Source: a virus. Taken from it: a stretch of 24,934 nt of DNA. The position numbers were made by a program, and so were the translations under genes. The notes beneath the pieces are model-generated. The model searched no databases. It was given only the letters and a program-made list of their open reading frames with translations, and was not told the origin of the DNA. Where the stretch lies: positions 1 to 24,934 of the IMG/VR virus record IMGVR_UViG_3300009408_000105. The stretch is one strand, 5' to 3'. Positions 792 to 22,255 of the stretch are shown here, in pieces (positions within the stretch are counted from its first letter, which is position 1; every line of letters begins with the position of its first letter).

Positions 792-3700
792 TTATTGAAG
801 ACCTGTTCCTGTAAACCCAAAAATCTGAGCTTGGCCGCCTCGTAGAGCCTTTCTTGTATTCAATAGAGATCTCACGTTCTGGGGCAATGCTTTGTTGAGC
901 ATTTCCGTCTGTAGCTGTGCGTCTGTTATGTCTACACCGTGCTTGGCGGCCCGAGCTAAAGCATTGGCAAGAGCTACACCATCACCGCGTTTTAACGCTT
1001 CTATGGAAAGGTCTATGAATTTCTGCTGTAAATTAGAATATTGCCTATTCCTATATCTTCTGATGGCCTCGGAATCCGACATTATAGTTTCTTTTACTGG
1101 GCGGAATCCTGCCATTTTAATAGCTATGTCTGCTTTGGTAGCCACATATTTCAACCTACCTCTATGGAAAGGGTCCTTCACCGCTCCATGGTTAAGCGCC
1201 GTCTGTATTCCAGTGAGGAAATTACCCACTGATGGCGAAAAGTCTTTGATTAACTGCGTTGCGCCTTGCCTTTTCTTAACTGCGCTTAATGCACTCGCAA
1301 TGGTTGTGAGGGTGGGCCCCAGAAAATCAGAAGCCCTGTCTGGGAGTATATTACTTGGTCCTACCCTCTGAGAGATGTCCACGCCAATGGCCGCGCCCAC
1401 GCCATAGAGAGCAATTTCGGCGGCCTTCTTCTTCTTAGGATCACTACCTGCCCACTTAAAGAGGAACGATTTGACCTCCAAGATAGGGTTTACCCCGGTA
1501 AAATATTCAATGACATTACTTATGCCCTTGGCCATGGGTATACCAATAAATCCAGCCATGAGTATCATGGGTATCCAAAACTTAATGTGTTGCAACCCCT
1601 TCAAATTGGCCATGAACTCAATCTCTTTGATGGCGAAAGGTTTAAATTGGCCGAAAAAACGTCCAATCGGATTCCTGAATACCTGCGCGGTATCCGCTAC
1701 GGAATAATCAAACTGAGTGTCGTCTACCATGCCCCGGGCGAAGAGGATGGCTTGTTTAACACTCATGCCCTTACCCTTTATCGCCCACCTATAAGCGGCA
1801 AGCGCGGTCACCCTACGGTTTAATTGCTCCGCCCCGTTGAAGAAGAAGAGAGATCCATTGACAATCTTACCACCGGCATTTGTAATAGAAAATCCACCAG
1901 TATTGGCAAGGCCAAGATCAAAAGGGACACCAATGCGTTTTAAGAGATTTTTATTCTTTTGGCTTAGGAACCACCATGGTCTCACAGCCATAGCATTGGC
2001 CCATACGAAATGCTTTACCGGGACCTTAGAAAAGGTATTTATTAACTGCGTAAGATTGACGAGACCTGATGACAAATTAAATAGTCCAAGTTTCAGTACT
2101 GCCGTTGCGTGCAATAGAGAATTAACGGTCCACACTGCCGGGCGCTCGGAACCCACAAGGGAACCAATTACAGGGAGTTTCTTAATCGAAGCATTCAGCA
2201 TATCCTCTACGTGCGTAGGAACACCTCCGACGTCATTGATGTATCTTTCTATATAGAGGGCAAGCGTCTTGTCTCTCAGTGCGTTACCTGCACGTCCATG
2301 TTCTACGCCAAAGTCTCTTTCAAACTTAGGAATAACAGCGGCTTTGAAGTCATCGAGGACTATATATCGAACACTTGAATTGTAATATCGACTAAATATC
2401 TTGTGTATATCAGCCTTATTAAATCCAGTCTGGCCTGTTCTCTTTAATAGATTACCAAAGAAGCGTCTCCTGTTTTTACGTCTTGATACGCTATTTGCGA
2501 GGCCCATCGCCTCTTCCCGAGTAAGCTCCAACCCCCTTTCAAACTTACCAACGAGACGAAAGAACGCCGTATCCTTCAAAACAGTCTTACCCATAAGGAA
2601 GTCTGGTAAGGTAAACGTCTTTGGGCGGACCACATATTTCTTTTTAGGGTCTAAGGTATTGGCAAAGGCTGTCGCTTGCCTAAGAGACCGATAAGAGCCT
2701 ACAATTCCACCGAGGGTTCTATTTACTGTTACCTCACCCTTTTTATTTTTCTCGGCAACTTCACTTTTGACCTCATAGACATTCCAGTTCTCGAAGACAT
2801 GGGGAACGTGGCCTTCCACATAGCCCGTAGTCCCTCCGTAAGCTCTCCGGTGGGCATTGAGTAACCTCCACATCTGATTATGCAACTTGCGATGTCTCAG
2901 GTAGACCTCAGCAACTACAGGACCGACCCCCATCTCAGCTAAGTCCGACGCCTTATATTCAGTTGCCTCCGCGTCTCCCATCCATTGCAAGGCGGAAAAT
3001 TCATCATGGAGTTTTTTGTTCTTGAGAGGTTTAAAAATATCATTAAGTCTCTTCTCTACACCAGTTCTAAGCCTATCCTGTTTATGACCGGCGCTCTTAG
3101 CCGCAACCACATAAAACCTCGCCTTACCTTTTACGAACTTAGGAGACGCAAGATAAGTCTTGAGGAAACCAATCTGTTCTTGTTTGTCGAGAGCTATATT
3201 TACATTGTCGGCGGCCTTTGGGAACATACGTCTAAATAACGACATAGAGGCGTTATATATAGATTGGAACCCCATGAAATCAAGGTTTACTGGCGGTTCT
3301 CCGGTTATCCTGCTATCGGCTTCTGTAATTGGAATCTCATATTTAACACCGGCTTCCTCTGTCATTGCCTTCAAAAAAGGCCGTATGTTTTCCTCGGGAA
3401 CACTTGCGACCATGTTTATACCACGTGAAACAAACTCATTATGTCTGACATGCTCAAGTATGTTTTTATTAAGAAAATATCTTCCCCCTGCTTTTGTACT
3501 TTTAGGGACTTCTACTCGTAAGCGACCATTTTGCTGAATAATATTAACCGAATCGTCAGTGGTTTTGAGTTTAATGGCAGGGTTATTGACATTCTCTGAT
3601 AAGAACTTTATGGCGTCATCCAATGTTCCTATTCTATGGGAGAAAAGAGTCTTTACATCATCTTGAGAAAGAGAGCGCGGCAATAATATACCTGTCTGTT

Positions 3701-6700
3701 TCCCACCATTGGCAAGGGTATAATTTACGATTTCAGCGTTCCTGCCGAATCTCTCAAAACCTGCAAGAAGATTACCCGTGACAATACTTCTGTTCTCACG
3801 TCCTGAACTTGGGATAATATTGTCCCATTTATTAAAAGGACTTTGGTTGGCGTTCATGTCTAAAACATTTTTAGTAATTTCTCGCGAAGCCCGGAGATTT
3901 ATTTTCTTAGATAAAGGTATCTGGATAGTCTGAGTAGCGTCGGCCATAGCGAAAGTGATTTTAACTGTAGATGGCGCAACCGGGTTACTGCCTTTACCAA
4001 CACTATGCTTTATTCCAATAATTACGCCCTTCTGGTTGTAAGAATCAGATACCTGAACATCCATCATCCTGCCGATTGTAAACGACTGCAATACTTCCTT
4101 CATGTAAGAAAACTGAGAAGACAACCCGTGAAGGTGGATACTGAGAATCTTTTGCGCCCCCACCGATAGGTCGGGTAACTCCGCCTTTCTAACCTTCAAG
4201 TATTGTTGTGCCTTGCTTTTAATGTCTGACAATAAATTATCGCTGAAAGCGATAGGTGTTTCGTCACCCAAAGTTTCGGTTATAAGTTTCTTTATCTTGG
4301 CTTGATTAAAAGGCTTTTTAAGTATTTTAACTGAAACGGTTTCGAGATTAGCGTCTGATGTAAATTGCTTGCTCTGGTCTTCACCTTTAAAAATCGTAGT
4401 AGCATTGATAGGTTCGGCCTGAAAATCAAAATCTCTCGAAACCAAAGTGTTTTCACCTATCTGGTTCAGGTATTCTATGTGATCATTGTATAGGGCTTCT
4501 ATATCGGCAAAGAAAGTCTTCTGAGTTGCAACAGGCATTAAAGCAATCTTGCCAGTAACCTTCGCCATGGCCCCTGCTACGCTATCTCCGACTTCATCAC
4601 CAGATAAATCCCCGAGTGGAGTGCCGAGAGCTTCATCCAATTCCTGATGATCGTTAAGGTAATCAGATACTATCTTGTCCCCCTCTATATTGAGCATATC
4701 GGGAACATCTTTAAGGGTATTGGCGCTCTCGGCGTTCGCTGAAGTATTGGCGTTAAGAGAAGCCATCTTCTTCTGCAAGACTACTGCCGGGCGAATTTCA
4801 GCCGGGAGTGCAGTCTGTAAAATAGTATACTCAGGCTTAACCACCTGACCGGTTCTGAATATGCGTCCAAGTGACTGTATAAAGGTGTCTATGTTAAGAT
4901 CGGCCTGAGTTACGATTAGATGTCTCTTGCGCTTGTCCTCAAACTTTTCCGAAGCGTGCATGGACAGCCCTGTCGCTCCCGCGCTATTAAACAATATGGA
5001 ATCAAGTTTGCCCGAGTTGAAGTCGTTAACCGCTTTGTTTCTGTCAAGATCAGACTTCGTCCTTTTGGCCAAGACTGGTGGGCTCTTAGTATAGTCAACA
5101 TAAAGGTCTCTTCCCGTAATCTCTCCAATAGAAAACCCTGCTTTCTGAATACCTGCCTTTATGAAGTCTATCGGAGACGCAGGAACATTGGCTTGAAATG
5201 AATCAATCCTGTCAAGAAGATCCTTCCATTGTTTTAAAAGCTTCGGAGAGAAATCTTTTTCTGGTATCAATACCTTTTTAACCGAATCCCCTTTAGCGTC
5301 AGTAACCGTGTATTTAAGCGTCCCCTCTGCCGCTTTTCTTAGAACTTCCCTGAACGAAAAGTCAACTACGTCTCCTACCTTGGCTCCTGTTTCATTGATA
5401 TAATTTTTAAGAAACGAACCCATCGTATTTGACAAAGTGATAAGAACTTTTTTATCATTCTTGAGTATCGAGACGGCTGTCTTTATGGTCGAATCAGCTT
5501 TAAGTCCAAGTAACATCTGGCTAACCGCATTATGGACAACAGCTGAAAAGCTCGTAGAGGTGACACCGGCGAGAGTGGTTTTTCTGCCGTTAATGACTTC
5601 TCCACCACGAACCGCGTCTCCATTTAATGTGCTTATTACCTCCTTTTTTGCTTCGTCAAAATCCACAATATCACGAAGGATAGACGTCACCGCGTCAGCG
5701 TTCTTAATATCCTTCGCTTCATTCTTTGCGTCTATGAAGGTTTCGATGTTAACACCGGAGAAATCTAACTCTTTTCTTACATATTGTCCCGATCCTGAAA
5801 GAGACTGTGCAATTACCTGCTGTAACGGGACTCCGCCTATCTTAATGGCCTCTACGAGCTTTTCGATGGGAAGTCCTATGTCTCCAAGACTGGTTCTGTA
5901 ATAGACAGGAAGAGTATCGGGCCTCTTAGCATAGGTGGCGGAAAGATAAACCACACCTTCTGCGTCAGGCAATATGTTCTTAATAATAACTTGACCGGTA
6001 GCAGACGTTCCAGAGGCTGTATGGGATTCATCTAAAATTATAATGTTGCCCACGGCCAACTGCTCAAGTATTATTCTCTGTTTATTTGGCCTTTGTAACT
6101 GAGAATATGTGGTAAATATAGCGTCAAAATCTGCCATAAAACCTTGAGGATCAGCAATCAACTTGTTATGGTTTCCAGATGTGCCGCCTTTTTTTATAAT
6201 TACCTGCCCAATCGAATCCCTAATCGGTGCGTCAGGCGCGCTACTAAGGAGAAATGGTTTTATACGATGATCTATGTCAACAAGGTCGTTATACATATCT
6301 GTAAACAACTTTGCCTTAGCCGTTATAAAGATAGGTTTCTTTCCACGTTTATTGGCATACCTTATAACCGCGGCGGCTGTCCGGCCCTTACCAACGCCAG
6401 TTTGGTCTCCTACAATAATGCCTTTCCCGTTCTCAATATTGGATATGGCAAGAGCAACCGTATCAATCTGCTCGGCAAACAGAGATTTAAAGAGTTCCGC
6501 CTCTGTCTTGTAGTCGAGTTTGCCCATGACGTATTTATGCAAGTCACCGACTTCTTGACGGAGTGAATCTAAAGAAGCCCTTGTCTGTTGCTCAAGATTC
6601 TTAGGCGTGAGGAAATTGCCACTATTGCCCCGGGACGATGGAGTATATTTAGACTGTAAGGTATTAACTACCTCTCCGGGCCTCCCGCTCTGAATCTTTC

Positions 6701-9284
6701 CGGAGTTGGTGCTATCGACGACAGAAACTCCATCAGACTTGGCGGGTCTCCCCCCTCCTTTTCCAGTGTCAACTGGGAGTCCACTTCCTGAACCGCTCGT
6801 GTTATCAAGTCCATGTTTTGTAAGTCCGCTATTATCTCCTGGCCTATCGCGAGAGGTGACATTGTTATCCGTGCCTGTAGGTGCGCTTGGGTGTCCGCCC
6901 CCAGAAGTTCCAACATCTGTTCCAGAAGGCTTTGCTGGCTTACCACCGGCAGATCCGATACCTCCTGCTGAAACTCCCGAGCCACCCGTTCCAGAAACTT
7001 TTCCACTTTCATTATTTCCTCTTGATAGTCCATTTTCCTTTCCTCCCTTGCTCAAAACATCCGGCAATTTACCACCGGAAAGCACCTTTTTTACCTCATC
7101 AAAAGTTGACGCCGATTCTACTTGATTAGGTGCGAATGGCCCAACAGCACTATCGGGCGTAACTTTCCTGCCATCTATCGTGATTATACGAATAGGAAAC
7201 TTTGTTCCCTGTTTATTGTAGAGATCCCCGGACACATCCACATTATGGGTTACGTTGTAATGGCTGTAGAGATAATTGAAAAACACCCTGTCTGCGGCAG
7301 TTTGAGCCCCCTTTTGTGCGAAGTTATGTCCACCGATGATAAAAGCGGCCTTGCCGTCATCCTTCATGGCAAGTAGGGACTCAACGACTATACGATGTTC
7401 AAGCTTATGAATTTTAAACCCATCATATAATTTAACGTCAGTGTTTCCAAAAGGCGGATTCATTATTACGGCATCGAACTTCTTGACAAAGGTCCCGGGT
7501 TTATTTTCCACAAGGGTAAGAGCGTCTTCATTAAAAACCACGCTGAATCTTAATTTAAGGTGCGTAGAACGCATGCCTATATCAAGCTCATTGACCACTG
7601 TACGTGCAGGTGAGGCGCCCATAACGAGCATTCCATTCCCCGCGGTAGGTTCATAGACCCGTCCATTACCTATATCAACGGCTTTGCCCATAAGATAAGC
7701 AATCGGTAGCGGTGTAGAATACTGCTGATTGGCGATAGAGCCCGATGTCCTCTGAGAAAGGATGGGCTGGTTGTCATAGATCTTTTTAAGAAGCGCAAAC
7801 TTGACATCCTCGGGCCTATCACTATGTATTATCTCACGCCCCTTATCCACAAGAGCAAGCTCGAAAGCCTCCTCGATGGCCTTCTGACTGAGATTGATAT
7901 TGTTACGAAGTTCAGACATCGGGACACCAAGAGCGTCTGCCACTATTTTAATAGTCTTGAGTTTGTTGAGTTTTACTCCCGCGTCTATGTGTTCCTTGAA
8001 TACACCTGCAAGGACAACTGTATTTATCTTCTCAGGAGTCCCTATATTCCCGTATTTGTTTCGTATCTCCTGCGGAGAAGACGATTTAAGTGAGATTTCC
8101 GGTTTTGTCACATTATTTGAGGGCGCAAGGTCAGGGTAATCCTTCAATACCTTGGCAGGAACGGGCTTACCCTCGGATAGGGCTTGCTTGACAAAGGCTT
8201 TATGCGCTCCTTTGTCAATTATACTTGGAGTCATTTGAATTGGGACGGTTTTCTGCCCCAGTTCTTTAGCAATTAAAACTCTATGAGTCCCATCACTTAC
8301 ACCTATTCTATTTTTGGAGTCAGCATATAGAGCCACCGGATTTTTAATACCTTCTTCTGATATTTTTTTCTTAAGCTCTCTAAAATTATCAGCCTGTTTA
8401 GCATCTGTTCCGAGAGTTATGCCTCCTATCTTTTTTCTATCTCGCACACTCGTTGTATCGGCATTAAGAAACTGCCTATTTCTCAATGTGTCAACACCCA
8501 TCTCCAAAGGAGTATTGTTGAAAAATGCTTGTTCCAATTCTTTCTTCGTCATCTCCCACGGTTGCTTTCTTCCTCCCCCGCCTACTTTTTCAAACTCTGT
8601 CCTCGTCATTTTCCAAGGCAATTTTGAGATTTCCGGTTTTGTCACATTATTTGAGGGCGCCGAAGCGGTTGCATTGGCCGCGGCTTCAACTTTAGCAATA
8701 TTCCTCTCGGCTATGGCTCTTGTAGCACCAGTAAACCTAAAGTCTTCGGCTTTGGGGCCATTGCCCACGACTTCTGTTTTGCCATTAACTGTGCGGAGCA
8801 GGACTGTGTTGGTGTCAAGAACCCTATCAGTGGTGTCGATAGAGAGAGGTACGGACTTTACAGCCCCACTCTTCGTGTTGAAGGTATAAAACTTAGTTCC
8901 CTTAGCCTTCTCAGCCTTAAGCCTTGTTAATGCCTCAAGGCTCGCGGCGTTCCCGCCCGAGGCATTATTCTGCGTCTTGCCAGTGTCACGCGTTGTCACG
9001 CGTGGCACAGATGAATTCTCAATAGGTGGCCCAAGCGTAGGTCCTTGTTTGGGGGATGGTCCCTGCGTTAACCCGGGTCCCTGTATCGGGGGCTGAAAGG
9101 GGCCTTGGAATGGTCCTTGCGCAGTAAGACCAGCCTGAGGGGGGGCATTGACAGCCGATGCCGCCGCCGCCTCAGCCCTTTTCTTGGCCTTAAATTCCTC
9201 CCGGATTGCATTAGCCTCATCTGTAACGGCCTCGTCGAGCGTTTTAGGGGCTGTGGGAGGCCCTGAGTTGCCCTGCGAGGCCAT
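792..9284 (-). CDS. Polyvalent protein: ParB-like, DNA methyltransferase, Strawberry-notch/DarB-type helicase, phage-associated C-terminal regions
   Basis: 2830 residues. Regions in order: Gln-Gly-Pro repeats (about 57-87); a ParB-like module (about 298-351, with DGTHRVLIAKELG) followed by a GKPVPAKVLKDYPDL segment typical of phage polyvalent proteins (361-386); an adenine-type methyltransferase with motif I YEPTAGNG (544-551) and NPPFG (609-613); a Gly/Ser/Thr linker (about 738-880); a superfamily 2 helicase with Walker A GDQTGVGKGR (959-968), DESH (1085-1088), YLSAT (1113-1117), SAGATGLSMHA (1434-1444) and QSLGRIFRTGQ (1470-1480). These motifs fit the Strawberry-notch/DarB branch. The C-terminal part has HVPHVFENWNVY (2159-2170) and an LPD38-like region (about 2375-2830) with a hydrophobic stretch near 2568-2590. 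P1 DarB, a comparable fusion, is packaged and protects injected DNA from restriction; by analogy and position this is a likely ejection protein. ATG 9284 lacks a good ribosome binding site and has an in-frame TAG three codons upstream. Confidence 0.85.
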   Translation of the reverse strand: MASQGNSGPPTAPKTLDEAVTDEANAIREEFKAKKRAEAAAASAVNAPPQAGLTAQGPFQGPFQPPIQGPGLTQGPSPKQGPTLGPPIENSSVPRVTTRDTGKTQNNASGGNAASLEALTRLKAEKAKGTKFYTFNTKSGAVKSVPLSIDTTDRVLDTNTVLLRTVNGKTEVVGNGPKAEDFRFTGATRAIAERNIAKVEAAANATASAPSNNVTKPEISKLPWKMTRTEFEKVGGGGRKQPWEMTKKELEQAFFNNTPLEMGVDTLRNRQFLNADTTSVRDRKKIGGITLGTDAKQADNFRELKKKISEEGIKNPVALYADSKNRIGVSDGTHRVLIAKELGQKTVPIQMTPSIIDKGAHKAFVKQALSEGKPVPAKVLKDYPDLAPSNNVTKPEISLKSSSPQEIRNKYGNIGTPEKINTVVLAGVFKEHIDAGVKLNKLKTIKIVADALGVPMSELRNNINLSQKAIEEAFELALVDKGREIIHSDRPEDVKFALLKKIYDNQPILSQRTSGSIANQQYSTPLPIAYLMGKAVDIGNGRVYEPTAGNGMLVMGASPARTVVNELDIGMRSTHLKLRFSVVFNEDALTLVENKPGTFVKKFDAVIMNPPFGNTDVKLYDGFKIHKLEHRIVVESLLAMKDDGKAAFIIGGHNFAQKGAQTAADRVFFNYLYSHYNVTHNVDVSGDLYNKQGTKFPIRIITIDGRKVTPDSAVGPFAPNQVESASTFDEVKKVLSGGKLPDVLSKGGKENGLSRGNNESGKVSGTGGSGVSAGGIGSAGGKPAKPSGTDVGTSGGGHPSAPTGTDNNVTSRDRPGDNSGLTKHGLDNTSGSGSGLPVDTGKGGGRPAKSDGVSVVDSTNSGKIQSGRPGEVVNTLQSKYTPSSRGNSGNFLTPKNLEQQTRASLDSLRQEVGDLHKYVMGKLDYKTEAELFKSLFAEQIDTVALAISNIENGKGIIVGDQTGVGKGRTAAAVIRYANKRGKKPIFITAKAKLFTDMYNDLVDIDHRIKPFLLSSAPDAPIRDSIGQVIIKKGGTSGNHNKLIADPQGFMADFDAIFTTYSQLQRPNKQRIILEQLAVGNIIILDESHTASGTSATGQVIIKNILPDAEGVVYLSATYAKRPDTLPVYYRTSLGDIGLPIEKLVEAIKIGGVPLQQVIAQSLSGSGQYVRKELDFSGVNIETFIDAKNEAKDIKNADAVTSILRDIVDFDEAKKEVISTLNGDAVRGGEVINGRKTTLAGVTSTSFSAVVHNAVSQMLLGLKADSTIKTAVSILKNDKKVLITLSNTMGSFLKNYINETGAKVGDVVDFSFREVLRKAAEGTLKYTVTDAKGDSVKKVLIPEKDFSPKLLKQWKDLLDRIDSFQANVPASPIDFIKAGIQKAGFSIGEITGRDLYVDYTKSPPVLAKRTKSDLDRNKAVNDFNSGKLDSILFNSAGATGLSMHASEKFEDKRKRHLIVTQADLNIDTFIQSLGRIFRTGQVVKPEYTILQTALPAEIRPAVVLQKKMASLNANTSANAESANTLKDVPDMLNIEGDKIVSDYLNDHQELDEALGTPLGDLSGDEVGDSVAGAMAKVTGKIALMPVATQKTFFADIEALYNDHIEYLNQIGENTLVSRDFDFQAEPINATTIFKGEDQSKQFTSDANLETVSVKILKKPFNQAKIKKLITETLGDETPIAFSDNLLSDIKSKAQQYLKVRKAELPDLSVGAQKILSIHLHGLSSQFSYMKEVLQSFTIGRMMDVQVSDSYNQKGVIIGIKHSVGKGSNPVAPSTVKITFAMADATQTIQIPLSKKINLRASREITKNVLDMNANQSPFNKWDNIIPSSGRENRSIVTGNLLAGFERFGRNAEIVNYTLANGGKQTGILLPRSLSQDDVKTLFSHRIGTLDDAIKFLSENVNNPAIKLKTTDDSVNIIQQNGRLRVEVPKSTKAGGRYFLNKNILEHVRHNEFVSRGINMVASVPEENIRPFLKAMTEEAGVKYEIPITEADSRITGEPPVNLDFMGFQSIYNASMSLFRRMFPKAADNVNIALDKQEQIGFLKTYLASPKFVKGKARFYVVAAKSAGHKQDRLRTGVEKRLNDIFKPLKNKKLHDEFSALQWMGDAEATEYKASDLAEMGVGPVVAEVYLRHRKLHNQMWRLLNAHRRAYGGTTGYVEGHVPHVFENWNVYEVKSEVAEKNKKGEVTVNRTLGGIVGSYRSLRQATAFANTLDPKKKYVVRPKTFTLPDFLMGKTVLKDTAFFRLVGKFERGLELTREEAMGLANSVSRRKNRRRFFGNLLKRTGQTGFNKADIHKIFSRYYNSSVRYIVLDDFKAAVIPKFERDFGVEHGRAGNALRDKTLALYIERYINDVGGVPTHVEDMLNASIKKLPVIGSLVGSERPAVWTVNSLLHATAVLKLGLFNLSSGLVNLTQLINTFSKVPVKHFVWANAMAVRPWWFLSQKNKNLLKRIGVPFDLGLANTGGFSITNAGGKIVNGSLFFFNGAEQLNRRVTALAAYRWAIKGKGMSVKQAILFARGMVDDTQFDYSVADTAQVFRNPIGRFFGQFKPFAIKEIEFMANLKGLQHIKFWIPMILMAGFIGIPMAKGISNVIEYFTGVNPILEVKSFLFKWAGSDPKKKKAAEIALYGVGAAIGVDISQRVGPSNILPDRASDFLGPTLTTIASALSAVKKRQGATQLIKDFSPSVGNFLTGIQTALNHGAVKDPFHRGRLKYVATKADIAIKMAGFRPVKETIMSDSEAIRRYRNRQYSNLQQKFIDLSIEALKRGDGVALANALARAAKHGVDITDAQLQTEMLNKALPQNVRSLLNTRKALRGGQAQIFGFTGTGLQ
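6668..7033 (-). CDS. Possible overprinted small gene inside the polyvalent gene linker
   Basis: 121 residues, same strand as the polyvalent gene but in the +1 frame, starting MDYQEEIMKVEKFLERVARE. ATG 7033 follows AAGGGAGG (7049-7042) with 8 nt between, as good as the site of any confirmed gene here. The product looks mostly helical and acidic, without Cys or membrane segments. In the main frame this stretch is the low-complexity Gly/Ser linker (about residues 751-873), and the nested frame starts and stops almost where the linker does. Caution: shifting GGN/AGN-rich codons by one base yields Glu/Asp/Gln codons, so a helical look can arise by chance. No family is recognised. Expression would need proof. 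Confidence 0.35.
   Translation of the reverse strand: MDYQEEIMKVEKFLERVAREFQQEVSDLPVVSQQSLLEQMLELLGADTQAHLQARITMSPLAIGQEIIADLQNMDLITRAVQEVDSQLTLEKEGGDPPSLMEFLSSIAPTPERFRAGGPER
7042..7049 (-). promoter_or_regulatory. Internal ribosome binding site for the nested frame
   Basis: AAGGGAGG on the minus strand, 8 nt before ATG 7033, in the middle of a long open frame. In the main frame it encodes Lys-Gly-Gly, so it may simply be linker sequence, but the spacing to an out-of-frame ATG is close to ideal. Confidence 0.4.
8091..8126 (-). repeat. 36-bp perfect direct repeat, copy 2 (C-terminal side of ParB module)
   Basis: This copy encodes APSNNVTKPEIS (polyvalent residues 387-398). It is identical, base for base including synonymous positions, to the copy at 8625-8660; the two start 534 nt apart. 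The pair brackets the ParB-like segment. Confidence 0.95.
8625..8660 (-). repeat. 36-bp perfect direct repeat, copy 1 (N-terminal side of ParB module)
   Basis: This copy encodes APSNNVTKPEIS (polyvalent residues 209-220) and is exactly 12 codons long and in frame. Just after it in the protein come two related short motifs, PWKMTRTEFE (223-232) and PWEMTKKELE (242-251), a smaller imperfect duplication. Confidence 0.95.
8984..9003. repeat. 10-bp perfect tandem repeat
   Basis: TGTCACGCGT occurs twice in a row on the + strand, within the polyvalent gene (around residues 94-101). The unit is not a multiple of three, so gain or loss of one copy would shift the frame of the largest gene in the window. 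Confidence 0.9.
9021..9120 (-). repeat. Gln-Gly-Pro-encoding low-complexity repeat
   Basis: Imperfect short repeats around the core CAGGGNCC on the minus strand encode spaced QGP units in the polyvalent protein (about residues 55-88). This looks like a flexible N-terminal leader. A related LGPA motif occurs twice at the N terminus of the upstream 556-residue protein. Confidence 0.7.
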
Positions 9285-10738
9285 ATTCTTCTAAGAACCC
9301 TTGTTTTGGTGACCAGTACATCTCCCTCAAGATTACGAACTGCCTTGGCCGCGAATCTATTTTGTTCAGCAATAGTCATCTTGCCGATAACTTTTGCTAC
9401 TTCGGGAGCAACAGGGATTTTACCACTCACCATATCCGCTATGTCTTGCCCGGAAAATGAAACTTTTATTTTCTTAAACTTAGCAAAATCTATAAGACCC
9501 TTGCCAACTACACGCGCGGCACTCGAAGCAAGATGAAATGAACCAAAGAGGATGGCGCCCTTAACCGCCTTATTGAGAAGAGTCTGCTTACTTTTCGGAT
9601 TTCCACCTGCATAAGCCGCATTATACAAGGCTCCCGAGAGAGTAGGGCGTACAATATCGATTATTTTCGGCAAGGTTTTCCCGAGGAAGGTCTTGTTTAT
9701 TATACCTGTTCCTTCCGCAAATAAGGATTTACTGCGCAGAACATTTTCAAGCGCATTAACGCCTGCATTGACACCCTTTTCTATCCCGCTGAAAGCTCCT
9801 GATGGAGTAGCGAGACCGATAAAGTCACCCACCAACGGCAAGATAGGACTGTTTGTTACAGAAGGGTCGACTCCGAGGGCTTTATTACTCTGAGTTAAAG
9901 AAGGCCCAAATCTTCCAATAACCTTATTTGATAAAGGATAATTTATCGTTCCACGGTTATAATCAACAGTATTGAGTGATATTGCGGATGTAGCTACCGC
10001 TCCCAATTTGGCAGTCGCACCAATAGCGTCAATCAAAGCACTCTTGGCAAGTACACCGGGGGTGTTTCCTTTGAAGGTATTTCCCCTGCTAACCTTAGAG
10101 AGATTCCCACGCATAAGTACGCCTTGTGGTGCATTACCCTGTTCTCCCTTCTGAGCAAATGGACTTTGACCGTTAGACATCCTCTGTCGCGCGTGCATGA
10201 CAGCTTTTCTTACTATTTCAGGTGTTGGTTTACCACCCTTCAAAAGATAATTTATTTCATCTTTGTTTAAAGTGGGAACCAATGAAGGGATGGCTATTTC
10301 TTTGCCATCCATATTGACACCTATAGAGAGTTCGGAAGATATTTTTCCGTCAGGTCTTGCCAAGATACCGAAGAATCCCAGTCCTTTTTGTGACCCATCG
10401 GCACGTTTCCCGAAAGATTGAGTATTGAAACTCTTCGGTCTTGCACCATAAGGAATTGGAGATTCCAAGGGCTGTGTATTGTTTTTGTTGGGAATACTCC
10501 CGACAGGAGGATTAAAGTAAGGGTCGTTAAAGGAGCCACCGTTAGTAAGGCGGAACGCTAACCCGGTCTTGGGCGTAGGCGTGAAGTCACGTGGCTCGGG
10601 GGCAGGAAGCGGACGTATGACATTGGGAACGTAAGGACTGGTGGCAATACGACTGATAAGACCCTTCTTCTGCTTTGTATCTGGCAGAGCAGGGCCAAGA
10701 GTACCCTTCTGTTCTATTGCAGGACCGAGAGTAGCCAT
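9068..10738 (-). CDS. Putative internal/ejection protein, overlapping the polyvalent gene
   Basis: 556 residues. ATG 10738 has GAGGT upstream. The N terminus repeats TLGPA (MATLGPAIEQKGTLGPALP). Residues about 119-196 form a module I recall from phage structural and polyvalent proteins, with SSELSIGV, IPSLVPTL and a helical HARQRMSNGQSPFA segment. The middle (about 230-430) is Gly/Ala-rich with hydrophobic helices. The last 70 or so residues, past position 9284, overlap the polyvalent gene out of frame and are Arg/Pro/Leu-rich and unlike the rest, as expected of a shadow reading. Either a natural 217-nt overlap, a frameshift event or a sequence error explains this. Position between tail genes and the polyvalent gene suggests a co-ejected virion protein. 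No named family. Confidence 0.65.
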   Translation of the reverse strand: MATLGPAIEQKGTLGPALPDTKQKKGLISRIATSPYVPNVIRPLPAPEPRDFTPTPKTGLAFRLTNGGSFNDPYFNPPVGSIPNKNNTQPLESPIPYGARPKSFNTQSFGKRADGSQKGLGFFGILARPDGKISSELSIGVNMDGKEIAIPSLVPTLNKDEINYLLKGGKPTPEIVRKAVMHARQRMSNGQSPFAQKGEQGNAPQGVLMRGNLSKVSRGNTFKGNTPGVLAKSALIDAIGATAKLGAVATSAISLNTVDYNRGTINYPLSNKVIGRFGPSLTQSNKALGVDPSVTNSPILPLVGDFIGLATPSGAFSGIEKGVNAGVNALENVLRSKSLFAEGTGIINKTFLGKTLPKIIDIVRPTLSGALYNAAYAGGNPKSKQTLLNKAVKGAILFGSFHLASSAARVVGKGLIDFAKFKKIKVSFSGQDIADMVSGKIPVAPEVAKVIGKMTIAEQNRFAAKAVRNLEGDVLVTKTRVLRRIWPRRATQGLPQPLKRSTRPLQMRLMQSGRNLRPRKGLRRRRHRLSMPPLRLVLLRKDHSKAPFSPRYRDPG

Positions 10739-10747
10739 ATTTACCTC

Positions 10748-10797
10748 TGTATGATTTTATGTCTCTTTCTATTGTATGATTTTATGTCTCTTTTTAT
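10748..10797 (-). repeat. 25-bp tandem duplication at a gene junction
   Basis: Two adjacent 25-nt copies (10748-10772 and 10773-10797, + strand) differ at one base. Each contains TGTATGATTTTATGTCTCTT. The upstream copy in transcription order encodes the last residues (KRHKIIQ) of the 284-residue protein; the second is non-coding and leads into the ribosome binding site of the next gene. Confidence 0.95.
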
Positions 10798-11623
10798 CAC
10801 TGTAAAGTATTGTCCCGTCTGGTGCAATAACATAATCATGGCCATCTATCGTAGCAATCCCGTTAGATACACTTACTTGTGTCGGTTTAGTATTCGGTGT
10901 AGCAGTAGAATTATCTTGGCCTGAAAATGATTTTCCAGTAGTGTTTTTAAACTCCTGCTTAAGCAAATCCAAAGTACGGTTCAAACCTACAGTCGAATCA
11001 CCTTTTTTCAACCCAAGTGCCGCAAGTTGCGCGGGATTATCCTTAAATGTGGTTCTCAGCAAAGCGTCAGTGAAATTATTGTTATTCTGTCGGGCCGCGA
11101 TAGAAGACTGAGTAATCCGTATATCTTTTAGTATTTTATCAACAGATCTACCGGACTTTTTAGTGACACTGGGAAATGCTCTTTTGCCTGTTAATACGAA
11201 ACGCTGAAACCCCTGAGCGTCCTTAATCGTCTTTGGTGTTTTAATAGTAGGAGCCTTTAACTTATCGTATCCATACGTCTTTAAGACGCTCTGAATTTCA
11301 GACAGTGGCCTATTATTCTTTATACCAAATTGAATAATCCTATCACGATGGTCAATCTGCTGTTGGTTGAATAAAGGACCTTGAGCGGATGCCGCATTAG
11401 GAGCAGGTTGAGGATTAACGGGAGCAATAGGAGGCGGTGAAGGCAACACGCTAAAAGTACCACGCCCGGCAAAACTATTATCAGGTGTAAGACCCGAAGG
11501 GGTGTTGGGAGTCCTCTTGAATATACCAAGAGGGGCATTTGTCCCTATTGGACGGTTACTCAATCCCCGGAGATCGTTCTTGTAAATAAGATTTGGGTTA
11601 TTGGTAATCAATGTATTTGCCAT
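10769..11623 (-). CDS. Hypothetical protein, putative internal virion protein
   Basis: 284 residues of unrecognised family. ATG 11623 is preceded by AAGGAGG at good spacing. Residues about 1-90 are Pro/Asn-rich and probably disordered (many Pro, Asn and Thr). The middle (about 97-215) is basic and helical, including a DRIIQFGIKNNRPLSEIQSVL segment that looks like a short helical hairpin. The C terminus has a small beta-like segment IATIDGHDYVIAPDGTILYSD. Its stop lies within the tandem repeat junction. The gene sits in a run of low-complexity proteins between the tail genes and the polyvalent gene, where podoviruses such as P22 encode ejection proteins; that role is inferred from position only. 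Confidence 0.6.
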   Translation of the reverse strand: MANTLITNNPNLIYKNDLRGLSNRPIGTNAPLGIFKRTPNTPSGLTPDNSFAGRGTFSVLPSPPPIAPVNPQPAPNAASAQGPLFNQQQIDHRDRIIQFGIKNNRPLSEIQSVLKTYGYDKLKAPTIKTPKTIKDAQGFQRFVLTGKRAFPSVTKKSGRSVDKILKDIRITQSSIAARQNNNNFTDALLRTTFKDNPAQLAALGLKKGDSTVGLNRTLDLLKQEFKNTTGKSFSGQDNSTATPNTKPTQVSVSNGIATIDGHDYVIAPDGTILYSDKKRHKIIQ

Positions 11624-20074: not shown

Positions 20075-22255
20075 TTACAGTTTATTCTCGTCTATCTTAT
20101 GATCTCCACACCAGTCATCGAGATAGACGACAGGATAACCATTCATGGAAGGCGCGTGTCGGCGGCATCTTCCGAGTATTATCGGTTTACCTACTTCAGC
20201 CTGTCTCGTCTTTTCGGCTTCTGCGGCTATCTGTTGCGCTCTCTCTGCAATCTTCGCCTTGACCTTATCTTTCTCTGGCAGGTCTGAGAGGTCGATAAGT
20301 ATTTCAAGTGGTATTGTCTCAGGATGTGTTTTTGAGAGTTCCGCCCATGTAGCGAAGTTAGCATGTTTCGTCGTAGGACTTGCCGCACTTTCTCCGACCG
20401 CGACATCGTATTTCGTGAGATCGGAATTAAATAGAAGTTCAAGAATATCTTGAGGATCGATTTCATCAAAGTTTTGTCCTCCAAGAGTGAGAGGTTTCTT
20501 TTTATGTGAAGTTTGAAGGATTCTTAGAATACGCATAGGCGTATAGATATGCTGAATCAACTGTACGAATTTCTTTCCTATTCCTTTTTTGGCAATAGCG
20601 AGGTTATCGAATAGGAATTCATTGCCGATAAGTCCCTGTCTTTTTTTCTCAGCGATGGCGACACCGCTTTCTTTTCTCTGTGATTGTCCCTGCAATTCAG
20701 GGTTAATATTCATAATCGAATTTATTTTATCAGTAGCAAGGGTCTCAAGGGCCACTATTTCCTTTGGGAATTTAACTCCCGCGACCTGCACGGGTGGGCG
20801 TGTAATATCCGTTAGTTTAGCGTGAAACCCGGGTGAAGATGAATTCCTTTTAAACTTATTGGCCTCTGTTTGTGTAGAGAAGGTAGTCTGTTCATAGAAC
20901 CATCCGTAAGAAGCCACTTTATTCATAATATCGACTGATTGTGAGTGTCTCTTATTTATTTCAATTTGCGGGTCTTTAGCGGCATGGACTTTACCCCATA
21001 CCTTTTTCCCGTGTTTTTTACTATATGATGGAACTATTCCGAAGTTTCCGTCAAAGAATTTATCTTTCGTTTTAGACAGAAGGACATTACCGGCCACCTT
21101 GGTTATAGTCATCTCGGTTTTAACACGTGGAAGGATATGAAATCCCTCCATGGTCTTTACTGCCGCGACATCATCTTTCGCCCAATCCTCTGCGTTAAAC
21201 AATATGTGTTTCTTTGGATTTATGAAAGCGAACACACGTTCGTAATCCTTATGCCAACATTCGAGGACCCTATATTCTTTACGTGCTATATCGAAGATTT
21301 CGTGATTGGAGGGCGTATTAAGTATTTTATCGGGGTGTTCATAAGGCTCATCCCTATAAACTCTTTCGGGATCCATGCCATCTTCGCGCATGGCTATATC
21401 GCGCTGTATATCATCGGCCTTGTCGGGCCAAGTCTTTTTTACACGGGCGTAGCTGAACCATTTGCCCTTTATTAAATATTCACAGTCTTTGAGGTCTTTA
21501 CGAAGATGAGGTCCGAACCAACAATCTGCCCATGGGTATTTTTCAATTACAATTTTACCGCGAATATCATCATCGAAATCAACTCGCAAGTTGAATAGTC
21601 CACGTCCGGCGACCATTTCATCGAGGAATACTTCGTTTTCTTCTTCATCGTAGCCATTATCTTCATTGATAACCTTTACGACAGTCGTCAAAATATCGGC
21701 GATATGTTGATCTCCATCTTCAACCGGAAAATATCTTATATCGCTTCTATTCTGTCTCTGATAGCCTGACAAAAGGTCAATCTTGGGTTCGATTTCGTTA
21801 ATAGTAAGTGCCGCTCGATTTTGTCTTACGAGGTCATCCCTAATCGATTTATCCCATTGGTCGCCCTCATAGAATCTTTCGCAAGACCGTGCGTCTTTCC
21901 GGAAGTCGAATTCGTAGTCCCGGGCTTCCTTAAAAAGTTTCTGTATTTTGATGGCGATTTCATTATCTGGTTCGGGGTCTTTTTCTTCGGGTTTTTTCTT
22001 AACGACTCCGGCAAATGAATGTGAGTGTCCATCCGGCGCCGGGATGATATGCCATTGCCCCTCTACCGGGCTTTGGATTGTCTGTCCTGTACTTTGATCA
22101 ATGGTAGGCATAGGAAGGGGCATTTGGTAGCCGATCTTGTGTCTATGCCCATTAGACAGAGACGTTGCCCCGGTTTTATTCGTCTTTGATAACCATGCAA
22201 TATGAGAATGTCTATTATTCTTGGAAGTCCGTAAGAAAATTACGCTGTCATCCAT
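20075..22255 (-). CDS. Portal protein, P22-like, with His-rich N terminus and C-terminal Cys motif
   Basis: 726 residues. From about residue 97 it follows P22-type portals: FRKDARSCERFYEGDQWDK, NRAALTINEIEPKIDLLSGY and ESGVAIAEKKRQGLIGNEF. The portal forms the dodecameric ring for DNA entry and exit at one capsid vertex. Unusual: the first 85 or so residues carry three HxH pairs (H16/H18, H37/H39, H77/H79; NGHRH, DGHSH), and the end has GRCRRHAPSMNGYP...DDWCGDHK with C698 and C717. That end matches the last half of the four-Cys motif in the small protein at 23781-24098. The start overlaps the terminase stop by 16 nt, with AAGGGAG about 9 nt upstream of ATG 22255. Confidence 0.8.
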   Translation of the reverse strand: MDDSVIFLRTSKNNRHSHIAWLSKTNKTGATSLSNGHRHKIGYQMPLPMPTIDQSTGQTIQSPVEGQWHIIPAPDGHSHSFAGVVKKKPEEKDPEPDNEIAIKIQKLFKEARDYEFDFRKDARSCERFYEGDQWDKSIRDDLVRQNRAALTINEIEPKIDLLSGYQRQNRSDIRYFPVEDGDQHIADILTTVVKVINEDNGYDEEENEVFLDEMVAGRGLFNLRVDFDDDIRGKIVIEKYPWADCWFGPHLRKDLKDCEYLIKGKWFSYARVKKTWPDKADDIQRDIAMREDGMDPERVYRDEPYEHPDKILNTPSNHEIFDIARKEYRVLECWHKDYERVFAFINPKKHILFNAEDWAKDDVAAVKTMEGFHILPRVKTEMTITKVAGNVLLSKTKDKFFDGNFGIVPSYSKKHGKKVWGKVHAAKDPQIEINKRHSQSVDIMNKVASYGWFYEQTTFSTQTEANKFKRNSSSPGFHAKLTDITRPPVQVAGVKFPKEIVALETLATDKINSIMNINPELQGQSQRKESGVAIAEKKRQGLIGNEFLFDNLAIAKKGIGKKFVQLIQHIYTPMRILRILQTSHKKKPLTLGGQNFDEIDPQDILELLFNSDLTKYDVAVGESAASPTTKHANFATWAELSKTHPETIPLEILIDLSDLPEKDKVKAKIAERAQQIAAEAEKTRQAEVGKPIILGRCRRHAPSMNGYPVVYLDDWCGDHKIDENKL

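Follow-up and report, generated by a model that had tools for sequence, protein, structure and literature searches.

Why should one viral gene carry the same 36 nucleotides (nt) twice, in frame, on either side of a single segment? The question is raised by IMG/VR record IMGVR_UViG_3300009408_000105 of an uncultured virus, which we analysed over its entire length of 24,934 bases (hereafter the window). Its minus strand holds a giant open reading frame (ORF, 792-9284) in which TGAGATTTCCGGTTTTGTCACATTATTTGAGGGCGC occurs at 8091-8126 and again at 8625-8660 as an exact direct repeat, 534 nt from start to start; both copies are codon-aligned and translate as APSNNVTKPEIS in the frame of the ORF. 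Since the ORF is 2830 amino acids (aa) long and combines a helicase above the family cut-off with methyltransferase-like and ParB-like parts, we assign it, from these sequence features, to the polyvalent proteins in the sense of Iyer et al. 2017 (PMC5512222). The segment between the copies is probably a self-contained exchangeable cassette in which the loop of a small helical frame holds a ParB-like guest, and the same flexible linker adjoins it at either end; the repeats would then be the footprint of a recent linker duplication at cassette gain and, at the same time, a substrate for cassette loss.

An earlier note on this DNA had described two identical 12-codon copies lying 534 nt apart in frame, and we reproduced both their coordinates and their identity. 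The pair is not a product of chance: the number of exact 36-nt pairs expected in 25 kb is about 1e-13 (n^2/2 x 4^-36, calculated by hand), and the pair is the sole exact repeat of this length within the window. Given the same 12 residues, identity of all codons has a probability of about 6e-7 (hand calculation, uniform codon use assumed). An exact-match search of IMG/VR returned no copy of the 36-mer elsewhere, the virus record itself holds no further copy with up to three mismatches allowed, and the sequence is absent from all other loci that we fetched. The repeat is private to its phage and is therefore a copied local linker; the candidate that it is a recombination site shared between phages was rejected.

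The repeats and the features that they enclose are as follows, in protein order (pLDDT, predicted local distance difference test):

8625-8660, minus strand: N-terminal copy of the linker repeat, APSNNVTKPEIS, residues 209-220; exact 36-nt match to 8091-8126
8583-8624, minus strand: extra orphan N half-motif KLPWKMTRTEFEKV (KLPWKMT), directly after repeat copy 1, without a C motif of its own
8517-8567, minus strand: frame N motif KQPWEMTKKELEQAFFN, conserved in 120 cassettes; pLDDT ~95 in the model
8229-8402, minus strand: ParB/Srx-like guest core with GVSDGTHRVLIAKELG; Pfam ParB_N, PHROGs ParB-like; similar segments in contigs L003 and L049
8127-8204, minus strand: frame C motif HKAFVKQALSEGKPVPAKVLKDYPDL, ending immediately before repeat copy 2; pLDDT ~95
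8091-8126, minus strand: C-terminal copy of the linker repeat, APSNNVTKPEIS, residues 387-398; exact 36-nt match to 8625-8660

The 166 residues that separate the two copies form a framed unit and not a ParB domain alone. Its start carries the N motif K[QE]PW[EQ]MTxxE, its end the C motif HxxxVxxALxEGKPVPxEVLxDYPDL, and the core between them is variable. The unit abuts the repeats exactly: copy 1 ends at the start of KLPWKMT and copy 2 begins right after YPDL. The guest core shares the ...DGTHR... motif with the ParB/Srx domain (ParB_N; the DdrB-like ParB of polyvalent proteins) and aligns both to Pfam ParB_N (E = 0.0087; 16.5 bits, below the cut-off of 26.3) and to the PHROGs family 'ParB-like partition protein' (E = 2.9e-4). 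The ParB-like character that the earlier note had given to the segment therefore stands, as weak to moderate homology, whereas the exchanged unit is the framed cassette and not ParB as such. The guest may act as an effector. In the model of the unit both frame halves are predicted at the high pLDDT listed above, the guest is poorly modelled, repeat copy 1 is of low confidence, and the overall predicted template modelling score (pTM) is 0.44. Among the 120 cassettes a closely spaced pair of N motifs was flagged in the window only, and the double N motif was rejected as a general feature.

Is the cassette peculiar to the window? We searched with the window segment, read the matches, and then applied profile and pattern scans with systematic extraction, a motif-based sampling that favours canonical cassettes; 174 of 278 candidate stretches were confirmed in viral contigs and 18 of 134 in the genome collection. 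The resulting family counts 120 distinct PWxMT-YPDL cassettes of 47 to 296 aa, mostly located in very long ORFs (median 1698 aa). By the definition coined here, a single open frame runs through a framed cassette from the N motif over a variable core to the C motif, as it does in the window unit. The cores differ, being ParB-like (the window and L049, and L003 by similarity), ADP-ribosyltransferase (ART-PolyVal), GNAT acetyltransferase, in many cases unassigned, or almost nothing; the functions given for these guests are simply those that the family names suggest.

The near-empty 47-aa form is predicted to be a compact three-helix domain (pLDDT 87.6), in models that do not test the packing of the two frame halves against each other. 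One structure alignment, into which the group-A ParB-like module had been taken, was discarded because it spoiled the frame. No convincing match to the frame was found in Pfam, NCBIfam, PHROGs or PDB chains, and a fold search of the mini-domain against PDB gave nothing at E <= 0.001 and chance helical matches only. The 47-aa form had no match among named phages and was matched in four plasmid records. Tentatively, and at rather less than even odds, we suggest that giant phage proteins use the PWxMT-YPDL frame as a dedicated docking platform. The frame would be a helical mini-domain of ~47 residues, not described before, and one effector domain could replace another in its loop; with duplicated linkers at hand, phage populations could alter by in-frame exchange which domains one giant gene encodes.

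Free-standing PWxMT-YPDL ORFs of 80-113 aa also occur in viral contigs and bacterial genomes (L006:5767-6081, L008:2358-2642, L038/L041/L043:5001-5168), and these may be cassette donors or independent small proteins. Tandem cassettes with repeated linkers are present in L086 (QSAPAEAKA after two successive cassettes), L214 (QKGEAAP after two) and L055. Two YPDL motifs lie 534 nt apart in L166 (5257, 5791) and in L172 (8723, 9257), which equals the spacing of the window repeats; these are probably related tandem cassettes, and the shared length a coincidence.

Repeated flanks recur around the same kind of cassette in unrelated phages. For 112 cassettes in large ORFs, the 75 nt upstream were compared with the 75 nt downstream, and a local score of at least 12 was taken as the threshold; all 112 passed a filter against DNA that different loci have in common. 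The threshold was reached by 16 cassettes (14.3%), compared with 28 of 6249 same-gene pairs slid at equal distance (p 8e-18) and with ~0.7% of cross-gene and codon-shuffled pairs. Because the weaker repeats near the threshold may partly be low-complexity linkers, slid same-gene pairs in linker-like sequence were used as a further control, and 17 of 2488 of these (0.7%) scored as high (p 3e-14). The enrichment, ~20 times above matched controls, is retained when the window is left out (15 of 111 cassettes, p 3e-13) and in ORFs with a single C motif (12 of 95, against 14 of 2068 controls, p 1.5e-10). The strongest repeats outside the window belong to L045 (37 of 38 nt), L214 (23 of 23), L049 (27 of 30), L086 (25 of 27) and L242 (17 of 17). 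Since the repeated flanks of different phages are unrelated to one another and the window 36-mer has no copy elsewhere, they are copies of local linkers and not a common recombination site.

Do such linkers accompany actual changes in module content? The comparison of relatives that the earlier note had advised was run on other phages, and modules, a ParB-like one included, turned out to be present, absent or reordered between repeated linkers. Eight contigs (L311=L120, L312, L313, L314=L118, L315=L121, L117, L124 and L318) share a related polyvalent gene whose modules are parted by linkers of 15-nt units (PTAEM/PVAET); these arrays vary in length, that of L117 exceeding 10 units. The order of modules, with only named modules compared, is as follows:

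L311: M1-M9-M7-M5-M2-M3-M4
L312: M2-M5-M8-M4
L314: M1-M7-M2-M3-M8 (contig end)
L315: M1-M12-M2-M3-M8-M4
L124: M9-M3-M7-M4
L117: M1-M10-M3
L318: M1-M5-M2-M10-M4
L313: M11-M4

Modules shared by these contigs are 84-100% identical in DNA, mostly 92-100%. The ParB-like module M2 (PHROGs E 6.6e-6) is present in five contigs and absent in three; a divergent YPDL cassette makes up M3. An exact 36-nt direct repeat encloses module M9 in L311, and in the alignment L314 is without exactly 321 nt (107 codons), one repeat copy being left. These two alleles of another polyvalent gene differ, in frame, by a module plus one repeat copy, the difference by which repeat-mediated gain or loss is recognised. In a further pair, L125 and L192, the genes are ~88-92% identical in DNA on either side and contain different cassettes in between. 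L125 retains a half-cassette, with a C motif and no N motif, which is the mirror image of the orphan N half-motif in the window. This pair, too, speaks for gain and loss of modules at repeats.

The best-supported account of these data is that whole framed cassettes are gained and lost when duplicated linkers undergo exchange with each other. In a recent event, cassette gain would have been accompanied by duplication of the local linker, leaving two identical linkers, and homologous or single-strand-annealing exchange between the copies would lose exactly 534 nt and leave one linker. As the unit and one repeat together make up exactly 178 codons, the reading frame would be kept by such a deletion. 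The same process may well have operated in the lineage of the window, presumably by means of phage or host recombination or annealing enzymes. The window would then be one case of a general arrangement, supported by the sequence comparisons, by which phages gain, lose and shift entire domains at repeated linkers without breaking the reading frame. The earlier note had proposed such repeats as the means by which polyvalent proteins take up, lose or exchange modules; as a general process, this gains support from the flank enrichment, the alleles of the eight contigs and the 321-bp variant.

Several results weigh against this account. A search of IMG/VR with the methyltransferase segment gave no direct relative of the polyvalent gene of the window, and none of the contigs found as relatives of its terminase, many of which are fragments, held the protein. 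A second contig of the window phage, L010, does not reach the polyvalent gene; no second allele of the gene was found, and no cassette-free allele of it is known in the collections searched. The natural alleles come from a lineage other than that of the window, their linkers are 15-nt tandem units, and most of their modules are without the PWxMT-YPDL frame. Around 85% of cassettes have no recognisable flank repeat, through decay or through another route of gain. The GC content at third codon positions (GC3) of the cassette, 0.37, lies merely at the 14th percentile of the gene, and a foreign origin of the cassette is therefore not proven.

Among other explanations, the most serious is tandem duplication of a linker-cassette unit, followed by loss or replacement of one of the cassettes, which would give linker-cassette-linker with the repeats as leftovers of duplication and not of insertion; we give it a substantial chance, if not quite an even one. 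In L086, L214 and L055, cassettes do stand in tandem with their linkers repeated, and the orphan PWKMT half-motif of the window looks like a remnant of a second cassette. However, the window has a single C motif, no cassette remnant is seen upstream of copy 1, and flank enrichment is also found in ORFs with a single C motif.

The remaining explanations fare much worse. An assembly artefact, in which a 36-nt overlap brought a wrongly placed or chimeric segment into the metagenomic contig, might be suspected in the record of an uncultured virus, the more so as the other contig of the same phage shows a 180-bp indel elsewhere, but no stop interrupts the ORF within the unit, the unit forms a complete cassette with correct boundaries, and the same layout arises independently in other contigs; we consider it improbable. 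It is slightly less probable still that the linker was selected as a protein feature, its 12 residues being reused for a function (spacer, protease site) with incidental identity of the DNA. Both copies lie at the edges of a folded unit and proteases can process phage polyvalent proteins (PMC5512222), but every silent position is identical, the peptide is not conserved in other phages and their repeated linkers are unrelated, which makes a protein-level reason unlikely. Entry of the segment as a mobile element (transposon or homing element) that duplicated its target site, or through site-specific integration between att-like sites, would account for direct repeats around an inserted-looking segment and for the free-standing cassette ORFs (L006, L008, L038, L041, L043), but can hardly be upheld against the lack of terminal inverted repeats at the cassette ends, where we looked for them, the lack of a transposase, integrase or HNH domain in the unit (Pfam, PHROGs), the length of 36 nt, long for a target duplication, and repeated sequences that differ from phage to phage, the window 36-mer having no exact match in any other viral contig.

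The giant ORF that contains the proposed exchangeable cassette has the following large features:

792-9284, minus strand: polyvalent-protein ORF, 2830 aa, containing the cassette; AAA_34 and Helicase_C_4 above cut-off
7146-7877, minus strand: methyltransferase-like part, ~70 residues downstream of repeat copy 2; similarity to BS-TP4 and an Acinetobacter phage
4701-6470, minus strand: Strawberry-notch-type helicase (AAA_34 and Helicase_C_4); Pfam matches above cut-off

Residues 470-713 are 42% identical to Bacteroides phage BS-TP4, and the methyltransferase-like part also matches an Acinetobacter phage gene annotated as N-6 DNA Methylase. Similarity to these two phages covers the methyltransferase-helicase of the giant ORF; their related genes lack both the PWxMT and the YPDL motif and do not match the ParB segment significantly, which speaks for the cassette as an exchangeable unit, and the surroundings of the cassette show no DNA similarity to named phages. 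The C-terminus of the ORF is PLxRFG/tail-700-like, with a score below the cut-off of the model.

Upstream of the giant gene lie a terminase-like gene and other ORFs. One of them (9068-10738, minus strand, 556 aa) shares ~217 nt with the start of the polyvalent ORF but reads them in another frame. Its final part resembles out-of-frame sequence; a frameshift, programmed or due to sequencing error, possibly joins the two. A tandem pair of 25-nt units (10748-10797, 24 of 25 identical) spans the 3' end of ORF 10769-11623 (minus strand). The second contig of the window phage, L010, is 99.8% identical, and its positions 5593-5772 hold 180 bp that are missing from the window at 20194/20195 (ORF 20075-22255, minus strand). 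Their absence fuses a portal-like ORF to the next small Cys-containing ORF in the window. No obvious direct repeat was seen at the junction, and the difference is either a real deletion or a difference in assembly.

Polyvalent proteins are poorly understood, and their frame-preserving gain of many unrelated domains has so far been a guess. An exchangeable unit, private repeated linkers and alleles that differ by one module and one linker make domain gain testable, by read mapping and simple phage genetics, and the motif pair offers a route to unknown effector domains as guests.

How does this arrangement compare with known systems? At the boundaries of lambdoid phage mosaics and in the repeated linkers of tail fibres, short repeated or conserved joint sequences favour in-frame exchange, and the joint sequence is shared between phages. 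In contrast, each phage described here has a repeated sequence of its own, with one copy on either side of a single unit. In polymorphic toxin systems the exchange takes place at the C-terminus, whereas the present one lies inside the protein, keeps the frame at both joints and runs between duplicated linkers. The two are alike in that an effector domain within a large protein is replaced as a module, which small ORFs in the neighbourhood may donate (polymorphic toxin cassette exchange is cited in PMC5512222).

Closest are the polyvalent proteins of phages and plasmids themselves (PMC5512222). The protein of the window resembles them in its great size and its many domains, among which are a helicase and methyltransferase-like and ParB-like parts, and cassettes elsewhere in the present set hold domain types that are also theirs (ART-PolyVal, acetyltransferase). 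The main text of PMC5512222 contains none of the terms PWEM, linker and direct repeat, and the frame and the linker repeats around exchangeable units are therefore not described there; our data add natural alleles. In the open-access literature we found no mention of PWEMT, and no description of the PWxMT-YPDL frame or of linker-repeat-bounded alleles in polyvalent genes. Already known, then, are the polyvalent proteins, and Iyer et al. 2017 (PMC5512222) had suggested small ORFs beside their genes as possible recombining cassettes; the PWxMT-YPDL frame and the linker-repeat-bounded alleles appear, within the open-access literature, to be new.

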